Positions 25,080 through 51,780 of a stretch of 64,000 bases of DNA are shown here, one piece after another. Origin of the DNA: Alphaproteobacteria bacterium HGW-Alphaproteobacteria-18. GTDB taxonomy: Bacteria > Pseudomonadota > Alphaproteobacteria > Caulobacterales > Hyphomonadaceae. Below the pieces are notes generated by a model. It searched no databases. It worked only from the letters and a program-made list of their open reading frames with translations, and was not told the origin of the DNA. Position 1 is the stretch's first letter. The number at the start of each line of letters is the position of its first letter. Made by a program: the position numbers and the translations under genes. The stretch lies in the NCBI GenBank assembly GCA_002841155.1, contig PHEH01000014.1:124001-188000 (forward strand), written 5' to 3'.

Positions 25080-26438
25080 ATGAAACGGATACTCGTCGCT
25101 GTAGGGCTGCTCGCCTTTGCAGTTACTGGCGCGTCGGCTGAGCCGGCATCTGCAACCAACCCGCCGAGCACCTTCCAGCTCGACAATGGCATGCAGGTCG
25201 TTGTGGTGCCCGATCATCGCGCTCCCGTTGTCACCCATATGGTGTGGTACAAGGTCGGCGCCGTTGATGAGGCGCCGGGGAAATCCGGCATCGCCCACCT
25301 CTTCGAACATGTGATGTTCAAGGAGACGAAGAATATCGGCCCGGAGGAGTTCACCTCCATCGTCCAGCGTTCGGGTGGCCAGCTCAACGCCTTCACCTCC
25401 TGGGACTACACCGCCTATTTCGAACGGGTCCACAAGGACCAGCTCGGCAAGATGATGGAGCTGGAAGCCGAGCGGATGGTGAACCTCATCATCAATGACG
25501 ATCCCAAGGGCCCGTTCATTTCCGAGCGCGATGTGGTCAAGGAAGAACGCCGCCAGCGGATCGACAACAATCCCGGCGCGCTGCTCCAGGAAATGGTGCT
25601 CTCCGAATTCTGGAAGGGCCACCCTTACGAGATCACCGTCATCGGCCTGATGGATGAAGTGAATGCGCTGACCCCGCAGGACGGGCTGGACTTTTACCGG
25701 GAGTATTACAGCCCGGAGAACGCCATCCTCGTGGTTGCCGGGGATGTGACCGAAGAAGAGGTGCGCACGCTGGCCCAGGTGCATTATGCCCCGATCCAGC
25801 CCACCGGCCAGGCCCATGCCGGGCGCAAATGGCAGCCCGTCGCGCCGCTGGCGGAAACCAAGCTGATCACCCATGCCGATCCCAAAGTGCGCCAGCCTGT
25901 CTGGAGCCGCTACTATATGGGCACCTCGTTCAGCCGCGACCGGGAAACCGCGCTGGCGCTGGAAGTTGGGCTGGAAGTCCTCGGTGGGGGAACCACCAGC
26001 CGCCTCTACCAGGCCCTCGTTGAGCAGCAGAAACTGGCCATCAATGTCGCCACCTTCGCCTGGACAACGCTGCATGATGAAGGCCCTGCCGTGATTTACG
26101 GCACGCCGGTCAGCGGCCTCAGCCTTGAGGCGCTGGACGAGGCTGTCATGGCCGAGATCGAGAAAGTGCTGGCAGAAGGCTTCACCGAAGACGAGGTCCG
26201 CCGGGCGCGTAACAAGCTCGCCGCCTCGGCCATCTATCAGACAGACAGCCAATCCTCGATGGCCAATCATTATGGCGCCAATCTCGTCCTGGGCTTCACG
26301 CTGGAAGAGATCGCCCGGTATCCTGAGGAAGTCCGGCAGGTCAGCGCGGAAGAGGCGCTCGCCGCCGTGCGCGCGGTTTTCGGCGCCGACAGGAACTACA
26401 TCACCTCCCATCTTCTGCCGGCTGAAGGAGACTTCTGA
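25080..26438 (+). CDS. M16-family zinc metallopeptidase (catalytic subunit)
   Basis: A 452-residue pitrilysin/insulinase-type peptidase with a signal peptide (about 1-20), so it acts in the periplasm. The inverted zinc motif HLFEH gives H73, E76 and H77, with the distal zinc ligand in the ERDVVKEERRQR helix about 75 residues on. The C-terminal M16 domain is also present. Bacterial M16 enzymes work as pairs, one with the zinc site and one without; the partner follows immediately, the genes overlapping by one base (TGATG at 26438). Confidence 0.93.
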   Translation: MKRILVAVGLLAFAVTGASAEPASATNPPSTFQLDNGMQVVVVPDHRAPVVTHMVWYKVGAVDEAPGKSGIAHLFEHVMFKETKNIGPEEFTSIVQRSGGQLNAFTSWDYTAYFERVHKDQLGKMMELEAERMVNLIINDDPKGPFISERDVVKEERRQRIDNNPGALLQEMVLSEFWKGHPYEITVIGLMDEVNALTPQDGLDFYREYYSPENAILVVAGDVTEEEVRTLAQVHYAPIQPTGQAHAGRKWQPVAPLAETKLITHADPKVRQPVWSRYYMGTSFSRDRETALALEVGLEVLGGGTTSRLYQALVEQQKLAINVATFAWTTLHDEGPAVIYGTPVSGLSLEALDEAVMAEIEKVLAEGFTEDEVRRARNKLAASAIYQTDSQSSMANHYGANLVLGFTLEEIARYPEEVRQVSAEEALAAVRAVFGADRNYITSHLLPAEGDF

Positions 26439-27838
26439 TGCTCAAGCGCCTGCTTTCCTCCAGCGCCGCTGCGGCCATCTTCCTCGCCGCCTGCGCCACC
26501 CCGCCCGCCACGCACGCTGATCTTGACGGGGTCTCGAAGGCCCCCCCCGCCTTGCTGGAAGTCGCCTTTTATGATGGCGATTTCGTCGATATCCAGCAAT
26601 TCGACACGCCGGGCGGGGTTTCCGTCTGGCTGGTCACCGAACCCTCCATCCCGATTGTCTCGGTACAGATGGCCTGGCGCGGTGGCTCGATTGCCGATCC
26701 CGATGGGCTGGAAGGCCTCGGCCAGGCGGTCGTCTATGGCATGAATGAAGGGGCAGGGGATCTGGACTCCCTCGGCTTCCAGACCGCCATGGAAGACCTG
26801 AATATGAGCTTTGGCTGCTCCAATGGCAGCGAATGGACCAGCTGCTCGGCCACCATGCTGTCAGACAACGCCGCCGCCTCGATGGCGCTGGTCGCCAGCG
26901 CGCTCACCGCGCCCCGCTTCGATCAGGGCCCGTTCGAACGCTTCGTGCGCGAGCAGGAAGTGAGCCTCCGGACGCGGGAAACCTCTGCCGGCTATCTCGC
27001 CTGGCGCGCTCAGTCTCAGGCGCTCTATCCCGGCCACCCCTTTGCCCGCGAAGTTTCGCCCGAAAGCCTGGCCGCGCTGACGCCCGATCTGGCCCGCGCC
27101 CATAAAGACGCGCTGATGACGAAGGACCGCCTCATCGTCACCGCCGTGGGCGCTATCTCGCCGGAAGAACTCGCCGTGCTGATCGACGCGGCAATCGCCG
27201 GTCTGCCGGAGACAGGCGAGGTGCCAGCAGCTGCCCCGGTCAAACTGCCCGAGGTGGCGGCCACAGAGCCGGTCGTCGTATCGCTGCCCCAGCCCCAGAG
27301 CCTGGTGCGTTTCATCGGCCCGGCGATGGACCGGTCAAACCCGGACTTCTTTCCGGCCTTCGTGCTGAACTACACCTTCGGCGGCGGCGGCTTTGAAAGC
27401 CGTCTCGTCAAGACGCTGCGGGTGGAGAAGGGCCTGACCTATGGCGTCAGTTCCAGCATCGATCCTAATCCGTCCTTCACCGTCTGGTCAGGCGGCGGCC
27501 AGACCAAGAATGAAAGCGCCGGGGAGTTCATCACCGGCATTCGGGACGAGATGCAGAAATTCATCGAAGGCGGCGTGACCGAGGCAGAGCTTTCCGACGC
27601 CAAGGCCTATCTGATCGGCTCCTATCCGCTGGGCTTTGACTCCAACGCCAAGATCGCGGGCAATATCATGTCGATCCGCCAGGACGATCTCGGCATCGAC
27701 TATTTCGACCGCCGCAACGCCCTGATCGAAGCCGTCACCCTGGAAGACGTAAACCGCGTTGCGGCAACCTACCTCGCACCGGAACGCTTCAGCTTCTTCG
27801 TTGTCGGCGAACCCGAAGGCCTCGGTCCGGTAGAGTAA
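26438..27838 (+). CDS. M16-family non-catalytic partner, lipoprotein
   Basis: A 466-residue M16 homologue with a lipoprotein signal (lipobox LAAC) where the upstream partner has an ordinary signal peptide. The zinc motif HxxEH is absent: the equivalent position reads GLGQAVVYGMNEG. The C-terminal R/Y motif used by the non-catalytic subunit to hold substrate is present in LRVEKGLTYGVSSS. It should dimerise with the catalytic subunit and tether it to a membrane. The genes are translationally coupled. Confidence 0.92.
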   Translation: MLKRLLSSSAAAAIFLAACATPPATHADLDGVSKAPPALLEVAFYDGDFVDIQQFDTPGGVSVWLVTEPSIPIVSVQMAWRGGSIADPDGLEGLGQAVVYGMNEGAGDLDSLGFQTAMEDLNMSFGCSNGSEWTSCSATMLSDNAAASMALVASALTAPRFDQGPFERFVREQEVSLRTRETSAGYLAWRAQSQALYPGHPFAREVSPESLAALTPDLARAHKDALMTKDRLIVTAVGAISPEELAVLIDAAIAGLPETGEVPAAAPVKLPEVAATEPVVVSLPQPQSLVRFIGPAMDRSNPDFFPAFVLNYTFGGGGFESRLVKTLRVEKGLTYGVSSSIDPNPSFTVWSGGGQTKNESAGEFITGIRDEMQKFIEGGVTEAELSDAKAYLIGSYPLGFDSNAKIAGNIMSIRQDDLGIDYFDRRNALIEAVTLEDVNRVAATYLAPERFSFFVVGEPEGLGPVE

Positions 27839-27843
27839 CCTCC

Positions 27844-27879
27844 TTACTCCTCTCCCGAGCGCGGGAGAGGAGGGGTCCA
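27844..27879. repeat. Palindrome after the M16 pair
   Basis: CTCCTCTCCC and GGGAGAGGAG form a 10-bp perfect stem with a GAGCGC loop, a few bases after the M16 stop codon. The core matches the smaller palindrome after ileS at 23875. It is probably a REP-like unit that may also stabilise or terminate the M16 transcript. Confidence 0.65.
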
Positions 27880-27910
27880 CGCCCGAAGGGTGTGGGAGGT
27901 GAGGGCGGCG

Positions 27911-28000
27911 ACGTCCGAAACTGTCCAGGACTGTCCCAAACTGTCCTGAAGTGTCCTGAAGTGTCCTGAAGTGTCCCGGATGTGTCCCGATCTGTCCGGC
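27911..28000. repeat. Tandem array of 10-bp TGTCC repeats
   Basis: Nine consecutive units of 10 bases (one spacing of 11) follow the consensus STGTCCYGAA, for example CTGTCCTGAA and GTGTCCTGAA. The last unit is followed by TTTGGCGCGG. The array lies between the convergent M16 and NUDIX genes. A shorter array of the same type is at 51721-51780, also between convergent genes. The stretch 27839-28157 holds no gene; beyond the array I see nothing in 28001-28157. Confidence 0.9.
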
Positions 28001-28157
28001 TTTGGCGCGGGTATATCGGGGGACAAGGCGCTCCACTCTCCAACACCGCCGCGCCTGAAAACCCAGCCGCGCAAGGCGTTGCGCGCCGCCCAATCCGCCC
28101 GCACCGCGCAGCGGGTAAACTCCTCCTCATCCGGAAAGGAAACTTTCCCGCCAGAAC

Positions 28158-29108
28158 TCAGTCAGGAGACTTTCGCGGTGTTGCCAGCCCCGGCGCCGCA
28201 AAGCCCCCTGAGGGGTGGCGCCGGTAGGTGAAGAGTTCGGCAGGGCGCCCGCCGGTCGAGGGTTCCATCTGGCCGGTGCCGGTCACAAGCTGCGTCTTTT
28301 CCAGAGCGCGGCGGAAATTCTGTGTGTGCAGCCCGAGGCCGAGGATTGCCTCGACCGCGCGCTGCAGCTCGGTGAGCGTAAAGCGTTCGGGCATCAGCTC
28401 GAACACCACCGGGCGGTATTTGATCTTGCTGCGCAGCCGGGAAAGCCCGGTGGCGAGAATCCGTCTGTGGTCGGAGGTCATGGCCGCGCCGAGGCGGATG
28501 CCTGCCTCGGGCAGGCCGGCATCGCGCGCGCATTCGGCCACAAGGCCCGCCTCATAGAGCAGCTCATAGCGCTCCAGCACCCGCTCCTCGATCCAGCGGG
28601 CACCGTCCAGGCCAAAGGCGATCCGTGCGCGCTCGGCCCGCTGTTCATTGCCCGCTGCCCAGGTCTTGAGGCGCGGGGCAATCTCGCCATCGATCAGGGC
28701 AGGGCGGCCGCCGCGATGATCCTCCCACGGAAAGTATTGATACCAGCTGCGCCAGCGGGCCTCGAAATTGGCCGCCACCGGGCGCTCCTCCGGCGTCAGG
28801 GCAAGATAGCCCACGGAGATGACGTGGGCATTGGGCGGGGCGTCCACCACGGTCGCCTCCGGCGTCTCGCGGTCCTTGTCGCCAAAGGTGTAGAGCTGCT
28901 CGACATAGCCCAGCTCAAAGCCCGTCTGCTCGCGCACCCAGCCCCTCAGCGAGAGGTCGAACGTGCGGTGGTTGACCGGGTCGAACGGGCCGAAGGGCAG
29001 GGCCTCTTCGCCGCTCGGCCGGCGGGTGACCAGCACATGCGGCTCGCCATCCTGAATGGCAACCATCACGGCCGAGAGACCAATCAGCAGCGCCGAGGAA
29101 GCGGGCAT
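28158..29108 (-). CDS. NUDIX-domain winged-helix regulator, NrtR-like
   Basis: A 316-residue protein with an N-terminal NUDIX fold (about 1-150) and a C-terminal winged helix (about 230-300: ERFTLTELQRAVEAILG and TQNFRRALEK). The NUDIX box is degenerate, as in NrtR regulators that bind ADP-ribose-type ligands instead of cleaving them. Alphaproteobacteria have a group of such proteins described as NAD-metabolism regulators, and this fits it. No NAD genes are adjacent in the window. It is translationally coupled to the upstream HD hydrolase (one-base overlap at 29108). Confidence 0.82.
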   Translation of the reverse strand: MPASSALLIGLSAVMVAIQDGEPHVLVTRRPSGEEALPFGPFDPVNHRTFDLSLRGWVREQTGFELGYVEQLYTFGDKDRETPEATVVDAPPNAHVISVGYLALTPEERPVAANFEARWRSWYQYFPWEDHRGGRPALIDGEIAPRLKTWAAGNEQRAERARIAFGLDGARWIEERVLERYELLYEAGLVAECARDAGLPEAGIRLGAAMTSDHRRILATGLSRLRSKIKYRPVVFELMPERFTLTELQRAVEAILGLGLHTQNFRRALEKTQLVTGTGQMEPSTGGRPAELFTYRRHPSGGFAAPGLATPRKSPD

Positions 29109-29734
29109 CAGATTGCCTCCGCCGCGATTACGGCCTGGATATCTTCAAACCGCTTCAGGAACACCCGCTGCGCGTCCGGAGAGGAAAGAGGGGTCAGGCG
29201 GAACGTCATGCCCTCGGGGGGATGGCCAAAAAACCCGTCCGACTCCGCCTCGCTGAAGCCTGCCAGCTGCACCGCCTCAAACCAGGCGCAGATATGATCG
29301 GCCTTCTTGATCGTCTTCTTCAGCCTGGCCGGGGTGACGGGTTTCAGGCCAAAACGGATATGGATCGCCTCCTGAAGGCGCGCCTCCACATCCTTGTAGC
29401 TCTCCCCGAGCAGCGCCTTGAACGGGGAGATCATATCCCCGATCACATATTCCGGGCTGTCATGCAGCAGGGCCGTCAACCAGGCGTCCGGCCCGAGACC
29501 CGGCTCCAGCTTGCGCACGATCTTCTCAACCAGCACCGAATGCTCGGCCACCGAGAAGGCATGCTCGCCCCGCGTCTGCCCATTCCAGCGCGCCACACGC
29601 GCCAATCCATGGGCAATATCCTCGATTTCCACATCCATCGGGGAAGGGTGCGCCAGATCGAGACGCCGGCCAGACAGCATGCGCTGCCAGACGCGAGGGG
29701 GCTTAACAGAACGCTTCAAAGGGTGGGGCTCCAT
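29108..29734 (-). CDS. HD-domain phosphohydrolase, YfbR-like
   Basis: A 208-residue HD-superfamily hydrolase. Metal ligands are visible in GEHAFSVAEHS, ALLHDSPEYVIGDM and the later KKADHICAWFEA. YfbR-type enzymes dephosphorylate deoxynucleoside 5-prime monophosphates, though other substrates are possible. It precedes the NUDIX regulator and shares its transcript. There is no signal peptide, so it is cytoplasmic. Confidence 0.87.
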   Translation of the reverse strand: MEPHPLKRSVKPPRVWQRMLSGRRLDLAHPSPMDVEIEDIAHGLARVARWNGQTRGEHAFSVAEHSVLVEKIVRKLEPGLGPDAWLTALLHDSPEYVIGDMISPFKALLGESYKDVEARLQEAIHIRFGLKPVTPARLKKTIKKADHICAWFEAVQLAGFSEAESDGFFGHPPEGMTFRLTPLSSPDAQRVFLKRFEDIQAVIAAEAI

Positions 29735-50012: not shown

Positions 50013-51725
50013 ATGGCAACTAAGGCGCAGGCAGAGGCGGCCGGGCAACCCCAGGACGACCTTCTGGCCACCCCGCGCAGTGGCGCGTTTGGCTGGCAGA
50101 TATTTGTCGATGCAGCGGTGCCGCCGATATCGGCGATCCTGTGTTTTGCGGGCGGCGTTCTGCTGCTCCTGTCTGCCTCTCAGCCCAGCATTTCAGGCCG
50201 GATGGCAGAGCTGCTGACAGTGCTGCCGCTGCCGCTGGTCGAGATATCCCACTTCGTTGCGTCCCTTTTGGGCATGCTGCTCCTCTTCCTCGCGGCGGGT
50301 CTCTGGCGCCGGATTGATGCGGCCTGGGGCGCGGCCCTGCTGGTTCTGCTGGCGGGTGCAGCCGTCTCCATGCTGAAGGCATTGCATTGGGAAGAGGCGC
50401 TTGTCCTGCTGCTGGCTGCGGCGGCGCTCCTGCCATTCCGCAGGTCTTTCTACCGGCGGGGCCATATGTCGGGCGGGCTTCTGTCGACGCCCAGCCTCAT
50501 CGCCATCTTTGCTGTCACCGGGCTCGCGGTCTGGGGGCTGTTGGCGGCGTATGATCATGTTCCGTATCAGGATGACCTCTGGTGGACATTTCTGCGCGAT
50601 TCAGATGCCCCGCGTTCCATGCGGGCGCTGGCCGGAGCCGTCATGCTCGGCGCGCTCATTGCCGCCTGGCAACTCGCCGGTTTCCGGCAGGGCCGGAAAG
50701 CGCAGGATGAAGCTGGCGCAGATCTGGCCAGGGCAGAGGCCATCTTCGCCGCCGCGGGGGAGGGGCATCCCGATGCCAATCTGATGTTTTCCGGCGACAA
50801 GTCCTTCGTCTTCACGCCCTCGGGAAAATCCTGCGTCATGTATGGCCGGCGCGGCGGCCTCTGGATCGCGATGGGCAATCCTGTCGGCCCGCCCGAAGAC
50901 CAGGCCGAGGCGCTGACCGCCTTCCATGAAGCCGCAGACCACGCCGGCAAGTCGCCCGTCATCTATGCGGCCAGCGGTGATCTTCTCCCGGCGCTTGTCG
51001 AGCTTGGTTATACCATCCGCAAGATCGGCGAGACTGCCTGTATCGATCTGCCTGCCTTCAGCCTTGAAGGCCCGGCCCGCGCCCGTCTGCGCCAGGCCCG
51101 CAACCGGGCCCACCGGGATGGCTGGCGGGTCGAAATCCTCGCCCCCGGGGCCGATGTGCCCTGGCCCGCCCTGAAGCAGATTTCAGACGCCTGGCTGAAA
51201 AGCCATGCGGGTCGCGAGAAAGCTTTCTCCCTCGGGCGCTATGACCCGGCCTTTCTTGCTCGCTTTCCCATCGCGCTGGTTACGCAGGAAGCGACCGGCG
51301 CGCCTGTCGCCTTCGCCTCCCTCTGGCTGGCGCCCGGCGGTAAGGAACTGGCGGTCGATCTGATGCGCCATGGTCCCGGCGCGCCCAATGGCGTTATGGA
51401 CGTCCTCTTCATCGAGGTCGCCCTTTGGGCAAAGGGGCAGGGCTTTGAGGTCTTCGATCTGGGTATGGCCCCGCTCTCGGGCCTCCGGCCGGGCCGCTAT
51501 TCACCCGCCCTCACCAATGTCGGCCATATCGCCTATGACCGGGGGGAGAGCCTTTACGGCTTTCAGGGGCTGCGGGCATACAAGTCCAAATTCGCGCCGG
51601 ACTGGAAACCGCTCTTCATCGCCGCCCCGCCGAGGGTCTCTCTGCCGGTCGCGCTGATGGCTGTTGCCTTGCTGACATCTGGCGGAGTCTTGGGTCTGCT
51701 GGTGCCGAAACAGGCTGCAAACTGA
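50013..51725 (+). CDS. MprF-like phosphatidylglycerol lysyltransferase
   Basis: A 570-residue membrane protein with about six N-terminal helices (to residue 230) and a C-terminal DUF2156/LysX-type GNAT-like domain (about 240-540). The domain shows KSFVFTPSGKSCVMYGRRGGLWIAMGNP, ARLRQARNRAHRDGW, SLGRYDP and GFEVFDLGMAPLSGL motifs. MprF proteins add lysine or alanine from charged tRNA to phosphatidylglycerol and flip the lipid, giving resistance to cationic peptides. It is shorter than MprF (about 850), lacking most of the flippase helices, so it may be a synthase-only form. The stop is followed by the TGTCC array. Confidence 0.85.
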   Translation: MATKAQAEAAGQPQDDLLATPRSGAFGWQIFVDAAVPPISAILCFAGGVLLLLSASQPSISGRMAELLTVLPLPLVEISHFVASLLGMLLLFLAAGLWRRIDAAWGAALLVLLAGAAVSMLKALHWEEALVLLLAAAALLPFRRSFYRRGHMSGGLLSTPSLIAIFAVTGLAVWGLLAAYDHVPYQDDLWWTFLRDSDAPRSMRALAGAVMLGALIAAWQLAGFRQGRKAQDEAGADLARAEAIFAAAGEGHPDANLMFSGDKSFVFTPSGKSCVMYGRRGGLWIAMGNPVGPPEDQAEALTAFHEAADHAGKSPVIYAASGDLLPALVELGYTIRKIGETACIDLPAFSLEGPARARLRQARNRAHRDGWRVEILAPGADVPWPALKQISDAWLKSHAGREKAFSLGRYDPAFLARFPIALVTQEATGAPVAFASLWLAPGGKELAVDLMRHGPGAPNGVMDVLFIEVALWAKGQGFEVFDLGMAPLSGLRPGRYSPALTNVGHIAYDRGESLYGFQGLRAYKSKFAPDWKPLFIAAPPRVSLPVALMAVALLTSGGVLGLLVPKQAAN

Positions 51726-51780
51726 CCTGATCTGTCCTGATCTGTCCCAATTTGTCCCGGTTTGTCCGGCTTTGCCGCGC
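51721..51780. repeat. Second tandem array of 10-bp TGTCC repeats
   Basis: Six blocks of exactly 10 bases, four with TGTCC at the same phase (TCTGTCCTGA, TCTGTCCCAA, TTTGTCCCGG, TTTGTCCGGC). The first and last are degenerate. The end, TTTGTCCGGCTTTGCCGCGC, closely matches the end of the array at 27991 (TGTCCGGCTTTGGCGCGG). It fills the 56-base gap between the convergent MprF-like and NYN genes and overlaps the last codons of the former. Confidence 0.88.

Follow-up and report, generated by a model that had tools for sequence, protein, structure and literature searches.

Helically phased TGTCC arrays dispersed over the chromosomes of a clade within the Hyphomonadaceae as candidate docking sites for a DNA-binding protein

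The TGTCC array found in the window, i.e. the whole stretch of 64,000 nucleotides analysed here, belongs to a set of arrays dispersed over the chromosome, in which a short word recurs on one strand at steps of 10 or 11 bp and is kept in relatives better than the bases around it. The sets sit at orthologous places in these relatives—a feature missed by the initial annotation of the window—and, in a sister species, a different word occupies the conserved places. The array of the window is probably one of about 70 docking platforms for a single sequence-specific DNA-binding protein of the clade.

The features of the window are listed in Table 1. The source genome (G000) is a draft of 3.88 Mb in 48 contigs, the relatives having been sampled as stretches. 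The array had initially been described as nine units of the consensus STGTCCYGAA, repeated at exactly one helical turn. The number nine applies if the imperfect CGTCC is counted, the exact TGTCC words being only eight; most of the steps are indeed of 10 bp, except for one of 11 bp; and the consensus is too narrow, since the spacers vary, being AGGAC, CAAAC, TGAAG (three times), CGGATG and CGATC. The location between convergent genes, those of the M16 peptidase and the protein with the NrtR-type winged helix, holds at this locus, and the second array of the window is flanked by convergent ORFs, too. CRISPR loci have repeats of about 21–40 bp, unique spacers of similar size and cas genes. The TGTCC arrays, composed of a 5-base word and a 5–6-base spacer, with spacer words recurring among the arrays, are not CRISPRs, as was already recognized at the beginning.

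Table 1 Arrays of the window and their surroundings
Feature	Position	Strand	Remark
Core array, eight exact TGTCC words	27922..27997	+	words start at 27922, 27932, 27942, 27952, 27962, 27972, 27983 and 27993 (steps 10, 10, 10, 10, 10, 11, 10); orthologous TGTCC arrays at the same place in G016, G008 and G034
Imperfect outer word CGTCC	27912..27916	+	one 10-bp step ahead of the core
Second TGTCC array, four exact words	51733..51767	+	step 10
Imperfect outer word TGACC of the second array	51723..51727	+	the ORF 50013-51725 terminates in the TGA of this word
Left neighbour, M16-family peptidase (context only)	26438..27838	+	
Right neighbour, protein with NrtR-type winged-helix domain (context only)	28158..29108	-	

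The G016 ortholog of the window array exhibits both 10- and 11-bp steps. The same site has a degenerate form in G064 and at most a remnant (one TGTCC with a TGGCC 10 bp on) in G030, there being no array in G029 or in the five non-clade relatives examined. Nothing similar to the window positions 27839–28157 was found in plasmid and phage records, so that a plasmid or phage copy was rejected as the origin of the array. The view that no element of this form has been described was upheld by the open PMC literature, in which, as judged from search listings, no report of such an element of phased words was found.

Concerning the whole genome, 183 places in G000 match three in-phase TGTCC words, compared with none for the reversed control; the genome search for TGTCC with a 10-bp periodicity, suggested along with the initial annotation, has yielded a large set. 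The 61 distinct arrays examined cover 160 of the 183 places, from which the chromosome is estimated to hold about 70 arrays; the density corresponds to about one array per ~55 kb, i.e. ~70 per 3.9 Mb. The longest in-phase run comprises three to nine words per array. Neighbouring words in the 61 arrays are 10 bp apart in 228 cases, 11 bp in 9 and 20–21 bp in 11; there is a single case each of 19 and 22 bp, and none of 9 or 12 bp. It should be borne in mind that the selection of arrays required three words spaced by 10 bp and is thus biased towards this distance.

The phase is also seen in a systematic sample of 800 kb from G016, taken without regard to arrays. Same-strand TGTCC pairs occur there at distances of 10 (64 pairs), 11 (8), 20 (42), 21 (9), 30 (22), 31 (10), 40 (9), 41 (10), 50 (4) and 51 bp (6), against a background of 0–5 pairs at the remaining distances from 5 to 60 bp and, near the first peak, of 0–4 at each distance of 5–9 and 12–19 bp. 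The drift to 31, 41 and 51 bp would fit a helical repeat slightly above 10 bp. The opposite-strand (inverted) pairs exhibit no peak or enrichment in the same 800 kb. Among all 5-letter words, TGTCC (and its complement) ranks first for the excess at distance 10, and a word-free autocorrelation of the sample revealed 15 stretches of period 10, 14 of them being TGTCC arrays, versus 0–1 stretches for each of eight other periods. As far as the composition of the spacers is concerned, their first two bases in G000 are CG, TG or CA—CpG and its two deamination products—in 187 of 224 cases, TA not being among the ten commonest pairs.

The G016 sample was matched by 22 of the 61 G000 arrays, 13 of which were used for evaluating conservation; A5 and A8 (one-sided) as well as A4, A11, A12, A26, A36, A42 and A53 (weak, partial or repeat-only) were dropped, and A9 was retained, though its G016 array is gone. 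The identity reaches 95% in the words (239/251), 64% in the spacers (126/198) and 85% in the flanks (7444/8719), with flanks taken 60–400 bp away, columns with a G016 gap excluded, the words exact in G000 by choice and the G016 side taken without selection for TGTCC; for word versus spacer, p = 4.5e-18. The word is held above the flanks, and the spacers change faster than the flanks. Both the early impression that TGTCC stays fixed while the bases beside each word vary and the expectation that it is conserved in relatives above its flanking bases are thus borne out.

Two of the genes carrying arrays, trmD and tilS, allow the comparison to be extended to further genomes. In trmD, the seven nearest genomes have 30 bp (51 bp in G064) inserted in frame, which the other 23 of the 30 aligned lack; the array there has the word TGTCC in G000, G016 and G008 and TGCAA in G029 and G034, its form in G030 and G064 being decayed or mixed. 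The tilS gene has two arrays without any change of length in comparison with relatives, except for three of 30 with 3 bp more at the second one. The first array, on the antisense strand, carries TGTCC in just two genomes, G000 and G016, besides what may be a remnant in G030, and the second exhibits TGTCC in G000, G016, G034 and G008 and TGCAAC in G029. The G030 arrays at both genes appear decayed. In this coding DNA, the word is kept in every frame of the 10-bp step. The insertion in trmD, taken together with the unchanged length of tilS, indicates that arrays can arise or change in place by substitution or same-length replacement and also by insertion.

The sister species G029 uses TGCAAC in place of TGTCC at conserved sites. 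The pattern TGCAAC-N4-TGCAAC is present at 20 places in G029 (reversed control 0) and at 0–3 places in each of 40 other genomes of the genus, a three-word search with TGCAA giving only one match in G029 and one in G020. Thirteen of about 19 G029 TGCAAC arrays were examined, and 12 of the 13 lie at a TGTCC array site of G000 or G016, the match of L524 being judged by adjacency and the G016 array being lost at L437; L536 has no homologue in the compared G000/G016 sequence and stands, therefore, outside the site comparison. The compared G000 sequence consists mostly of array neighbourhoods, i.e. the test is of G029 places that land there, and at the array. The comparison set covers 19 places from other genomes (two loci twice), of which 15 are without a homologue in the compared sequence; from the remaining four, three are without an array and one, in trmD of G034, is at an array site. 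In the ungapped alignments, the best being that of L545 and L109, TG and part of the spacer are kept, with TCC and CAA swapped; other alignments are gapped. Position 6 is G in 91% of 53 G034 spacers and C or T in 86% of 224 G000 spacers. Among 20 G034 arrays examined, 14 are located at G000/G016 array sites, one at an array-free place and five have no homologue in the compared sequence. Identity tables, used without a tree, suggest two groups, one of G000, G016 and G030 and one of G008, G034 and G029, to both of which G064 is external. Given this grouping, the simplest history would be that TGTCC is the older word and that the switch occurred in G029.

With regard to the taxonomic distribution, three-word TGTCC matches were found in five of 61 genomes, the source included: 183 in G000, 150 in G016, 146 in G008, 74 in G034 and three in G030. 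There were none in the other 32 of the 37 genomes of the genus, nor in any of the 24 genomes of other genera, G061–G064 being outside this search. Many copies are thus present only in G000, G008, G016 and G034, i.e. four of the 37 genus genomes searched. Among 385 genomes sampled from the class, six match, the five others with 1–3 places each. The reversed control, i.e. three CCTGT words at 10-bp steps, has 26 matches in G248 and six in G265, both from other Alphaproteobacteria, where it is possibly another array word. A four-word scan of named genomes gave at least 107 stretches; they come from numerous unrelated taxa, as a rule one in each record, and simple repeats are frequent among them. 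Hyphomonas sp. DS1.007 appears twice among the stretches listed. A single array alone therefore proves little: what is rare is the dispersed set and not the isolated array, and within the genomes searched the set is confined to one clade. The 32 genus genomes without three-word TGTCC arrays imply that the function is dispensable there or that other words are used. In 400 kb of G064, the autocorrelation gave no period-10 match, and single three-word arrays of TGTCA, TGTCC and TGACC, as well as one of GCTGG, are present; from six G000 array sites compared with this genome, A57 keeps two TGTCC plus near-words, A6 is degenerate, and no clear array was seen in the aligned G064 sequence at A8, A30, A39 and A52.

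The one-face word, the head-to-tail order, the steps of 10 or 11 bp, the free spacers and the occurrence in both coding and non-coding DNA argue for one protein placing one protomer per turn. The initial suggestion of an array that a cooperative DNA-binding protein would use is supported by the helical spacing, the held word and the varying spacers, and it is from such sequence patterns that we infer the reading of the arrays by a protein, its cooperative binding and a change in the protein driving the change of the word. Each protomer would read one short word on one face of the helix, consisting of TG plus three variable bases, the latter being TCC in G000, G016, G008 and G034. The protomers would stack head to tail, 10–11 bp apart, so that three to nine words could load a polar, cooperative filament, leaving the 5-bp spacers mostly free. 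The word would co-evolve with its reader, with TGCAAC replacing TGTCC at the same sites in G029; a switch of the word at fixed places is best explained by a change of the reader protein. The search for the binder found none: small proteins with Bac_DnaA_C, which became a candidate through three phage loci, are present both in genomes that have arrays and in those that lack them, in G034 there being no Bac_DnaA_C match beyond the long dnaA-type one, and this candidate was rejected as not linked to the presence of arrays.

Similar arrays are known from phage contigs, where at least 95 TGTCC 10-bp arrays with varied spacers were found among at least 120 stretches, some beside or inside primase genes and four near small-terminase genes. 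The likeness to phage replication iterons is that some phage contigs carry such arrays at primase genes; the phage arrays can presumably serve as iterons or packaging sites. The phage case differs, however, in having one or two arrays per stretch, some as inverted pairs, in comparison with ~70 on the chromosome here, and the chromosomal arrays are not beside an initiator gene where the genes have been identified (tilS, trmD and the M16 peptidase, a minority of the 61 neighbourhoods). Among 125 ORFs nearest to viral arrays—drawn from 145, two of the closest ORFs having been picked for each of 73 array types, with the L226-type repeats excluded—the best 25 of 45 Pfam families include AAA_25 (6), Prim-Pol (5), HNH (5), portal (3), Bac_DnaA_C (3), HNH_5 (3), DnaB_C (2) and terminase entries (1 each). 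No single protein family accompanies the viral arrays, and the terminase/iteron analogy was therefore abandoned as a guide to the binder. Inverted pairs of 4-word TGTCC arrays were seen in the viral contigs L226, L236, L240, L243, L245, L249, L255, L260, L272, L273, L282, L284, L287, L289 and L293; those of L226 sit in an 816-aa primase-like ORF, resembling a phage replication origin. One conserved 4-word array is common to L145, L150, L174, L178, L185, L208 and L215, mostly records of Bacteroidales, with a variant in L118, L148, L172 and L187; judged by eye from the ORFs, it lies near ParA-like, mobilisation or topoisomerase-like genes and is probably a mobile element site.

As to what the docking arrays would be for, the closest analogues are DNA-uptake dialects and Noc sites. 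Two roles fit about equally, both of them within the docking-array reading and not alternatives to it. The first one, possible albeit rather doubtful, is that the arrays are scattered over the chromosome as places where a chromosome-organising or division-coupling protein is loaded, in the manner of the Noc sites of Bacillus and the SlmA sites of E. coli. The arrays share with the Noc (NBS) and SlmA (SBS) sites the occurrence as tens of dispersed sites; their number of ~70, both intergenic and genic, is as for Noc, and the words are strongly held across a long divergence. The Noc sites, however, are palindromes, largely absent from the terminus, whereas the arrays are direct repeats. Noc has been described to assemble into complexes at some 70 places distributed round the chromosome, nucleating there and then spreading (PMC4331003). 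Against such a role, only a few species of the genus possess the arrays, most of its genomes searched doing without them. Furthermore, the 44 arrays in the first 2.19 Mb of G016 are spaced in a manner indistinguishable from random (CV 1.16), their strands are mixed and no clear origin/terminus pattern was discernible; even spacing or strand polarity along this part of the chromosome was rejected, as neither was seen. The gaps between G016 arrays at 727–995 and 1393–1658 kb were chosen after the fact, and the region of 1.39–1.87 Mb, with two arrays, was likewise picked post hoc, the position of the terminus being uncertain; for H. neptunium, the GC skew was reported as failing to place the origin clearly (PMC6650430). 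Two G016 samples without three-word arrays, G016:C1:2586001-2606000 and 2678001-2698000 (L467 and L468), have a GC content of 0.55–0.56 versus ~0.62 and are probably an acquired island.

The second role, to be regarded with the same reserve, is that of a self-DNA tag, in which a receptor or packaging protein would prefer arrays of its own dialect. Biased transfer and recombination would spread and repair them at any place of origin, genes included, and the dialect would follow the receptor. It is favoured by the species dialects at conserved places, by the arrays within core genes with random-like spacing, and by the G034 trmD array in the G029 dialect, as would be expected of a cross-species transfer or a relic. 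The DNA uptake sequences (DUS) of Neisseriaceae are similarly short words spread over the whole chromosome, with species-specific dialects around a conserved core (PMC3630211), and the arrays have a species-specific word recurring genome-wide, with TGTCC and the TGCAAC of G029 sharing TG as the common core. The DUS are, however, 10–12-mers in thousands of copies (PMC3630211), unlike the ~70 helically phased arrays here; single copies of TGTCC are not over-represented, with 1401 on both strands of the 800 kb of G016 versus ~1720 expected from 62% G+C. With roughly one array per 55 kb, the density would also be low for a tag on small fragments, and uptake or packaging genes have so far not been tied to the arrays here. 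Moreover, the small terminase of the Rhodobacter gene transfer agent was described to bind DNA weakly, with the identity of the DNA hardly mattering (PMC6854486).

Two further groups of repeats should be mentioned. The REP/BIME elements are dispersed and often located 3' of genes, REPs being palindromic and extragenic. The arrays resemble them in being dispersed and often 3' of genes, and differ in being direct repeats, a third of which are inside genes. A second dispersed repeat, TCACCG(C/T)GCCCCACCC, follows several arrays (L001, L009, L036; contig starts C2, C3 and C7 of G000), and a REP-like hairpin of the CCCTCCCCAT...ATGGGGAGGG type occurs in L009 and L036. The TAACTGA heptamers of Beggiatoaceae, cyanobacteria and Bacteroidetes are likewise abundant short direct repeats of one fixed word, reported in 169 sets in one genome; unlike the arrays, they run head to tail and, in the genome under study, lie for the most part immediately ahead of start codons (PMC4679880). 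The arrays, for their part, are not built of a fixed heptamer but of a 10-bp unit in which a 5-base word is followed by a free 5-base spacer, they are phased at 10 bp, often genic or post-stop, and have dialects.

Apart from docking, copying without function is an improbable explanation, according to which mobile or templated decamers have been spread and homogenised, so that the shared word would only reflect the donor. The spacer vocabulary is indeed reused, the exact spacer words recurring above independent expectation (e.g. CGGTT 18 times versus 4.1), which suggests some copying of units; local duplication, exemplified by the TGATC run of L009, and the 30-bp insertion in trmD point in the same direction. 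On the other hand, the spacers outpace the flanks in divergence while the word is held, and the phase is held through both 10- and 11-bp steps. Both tilS arrays, with the 3-bp exception in three of 30 relatives, and the array cores of the G000/G064 pairs A52 and A57 align without gaps with array-free or degenerate homologues, and no donor element carrying arrays was seen in the loci examined.

The placement of the arrays relative to genes was assessed with an own codon-based gene caller, which scored the window as 90% coding. Twenty of the 61 arrays are inside genes and 41 between them, the latter being a strong excess over the intergenic share of 11% in the G016 sample. Genic arrays are antisense in 15 and sense in five of the 20 cases (p = 0.04), a bias that may be due to stop codons in the sense core: read antisense, the core is free of stops in all three frames in 54 of the 61 arrays, and read sense in 18. 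Both neighbours could be called for 36 of the intergenic arrays, their arrangement being tandem in 24 cases, convergent in seven and divergent in five. Since convergent gaps represent 13% of the gaps and 17% of the intergenic length in the G016 sample, 7/36 is no enrichment (p = 0.32 by gap number and 0.65 by length). The preference for convergent genes proposed at the beginning, which would also be expected of a transcription terminator, is not found in the set, and the convergent-transcription barrier was rejected. A third of the arrays are inside genes. An element acting at the level of RNA, such as a Rho-type terminator or the barrier just mentioned, is very improbable: all 16 arrays between two plus-strand genes do begin 2–93 bp past the upstream stop codon, and the window array, as RNA, has a fold slightly superior to that of shuffled sequences (z -1.9 for the plus and -2.6 for the minus strand), but that folding is only modest, no Rfam match was found in the window positions 26500–29500, the antisense bias can be explained by stop codons, and RNA would hardly need an exact phase of 10/11 bp.

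Returning to the docking arrays, a possible, although still tentative, proposal is that they constitute a chromosome-wide barcode, in which the phased arrays stay at fixed places, also within core genes, and their word is rewritten over the genome as a lineage changes its reader, for recognition of the chromosome of each species as self in transfer or segregation. If this is true, the barcode would be a new dispersed recognition system, based on arrays instead of single sites, with one reader protomer per turn and with dialect switches visible site by site. The arrays would record the co-evolution of a protein and its whole set of genomic sites cleanly, the positions being conserved, the phase held and the word changed. 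Within genes such as trmD and tilS, the results suggest that a constraint at the level of DNA may shape the protein sequence.
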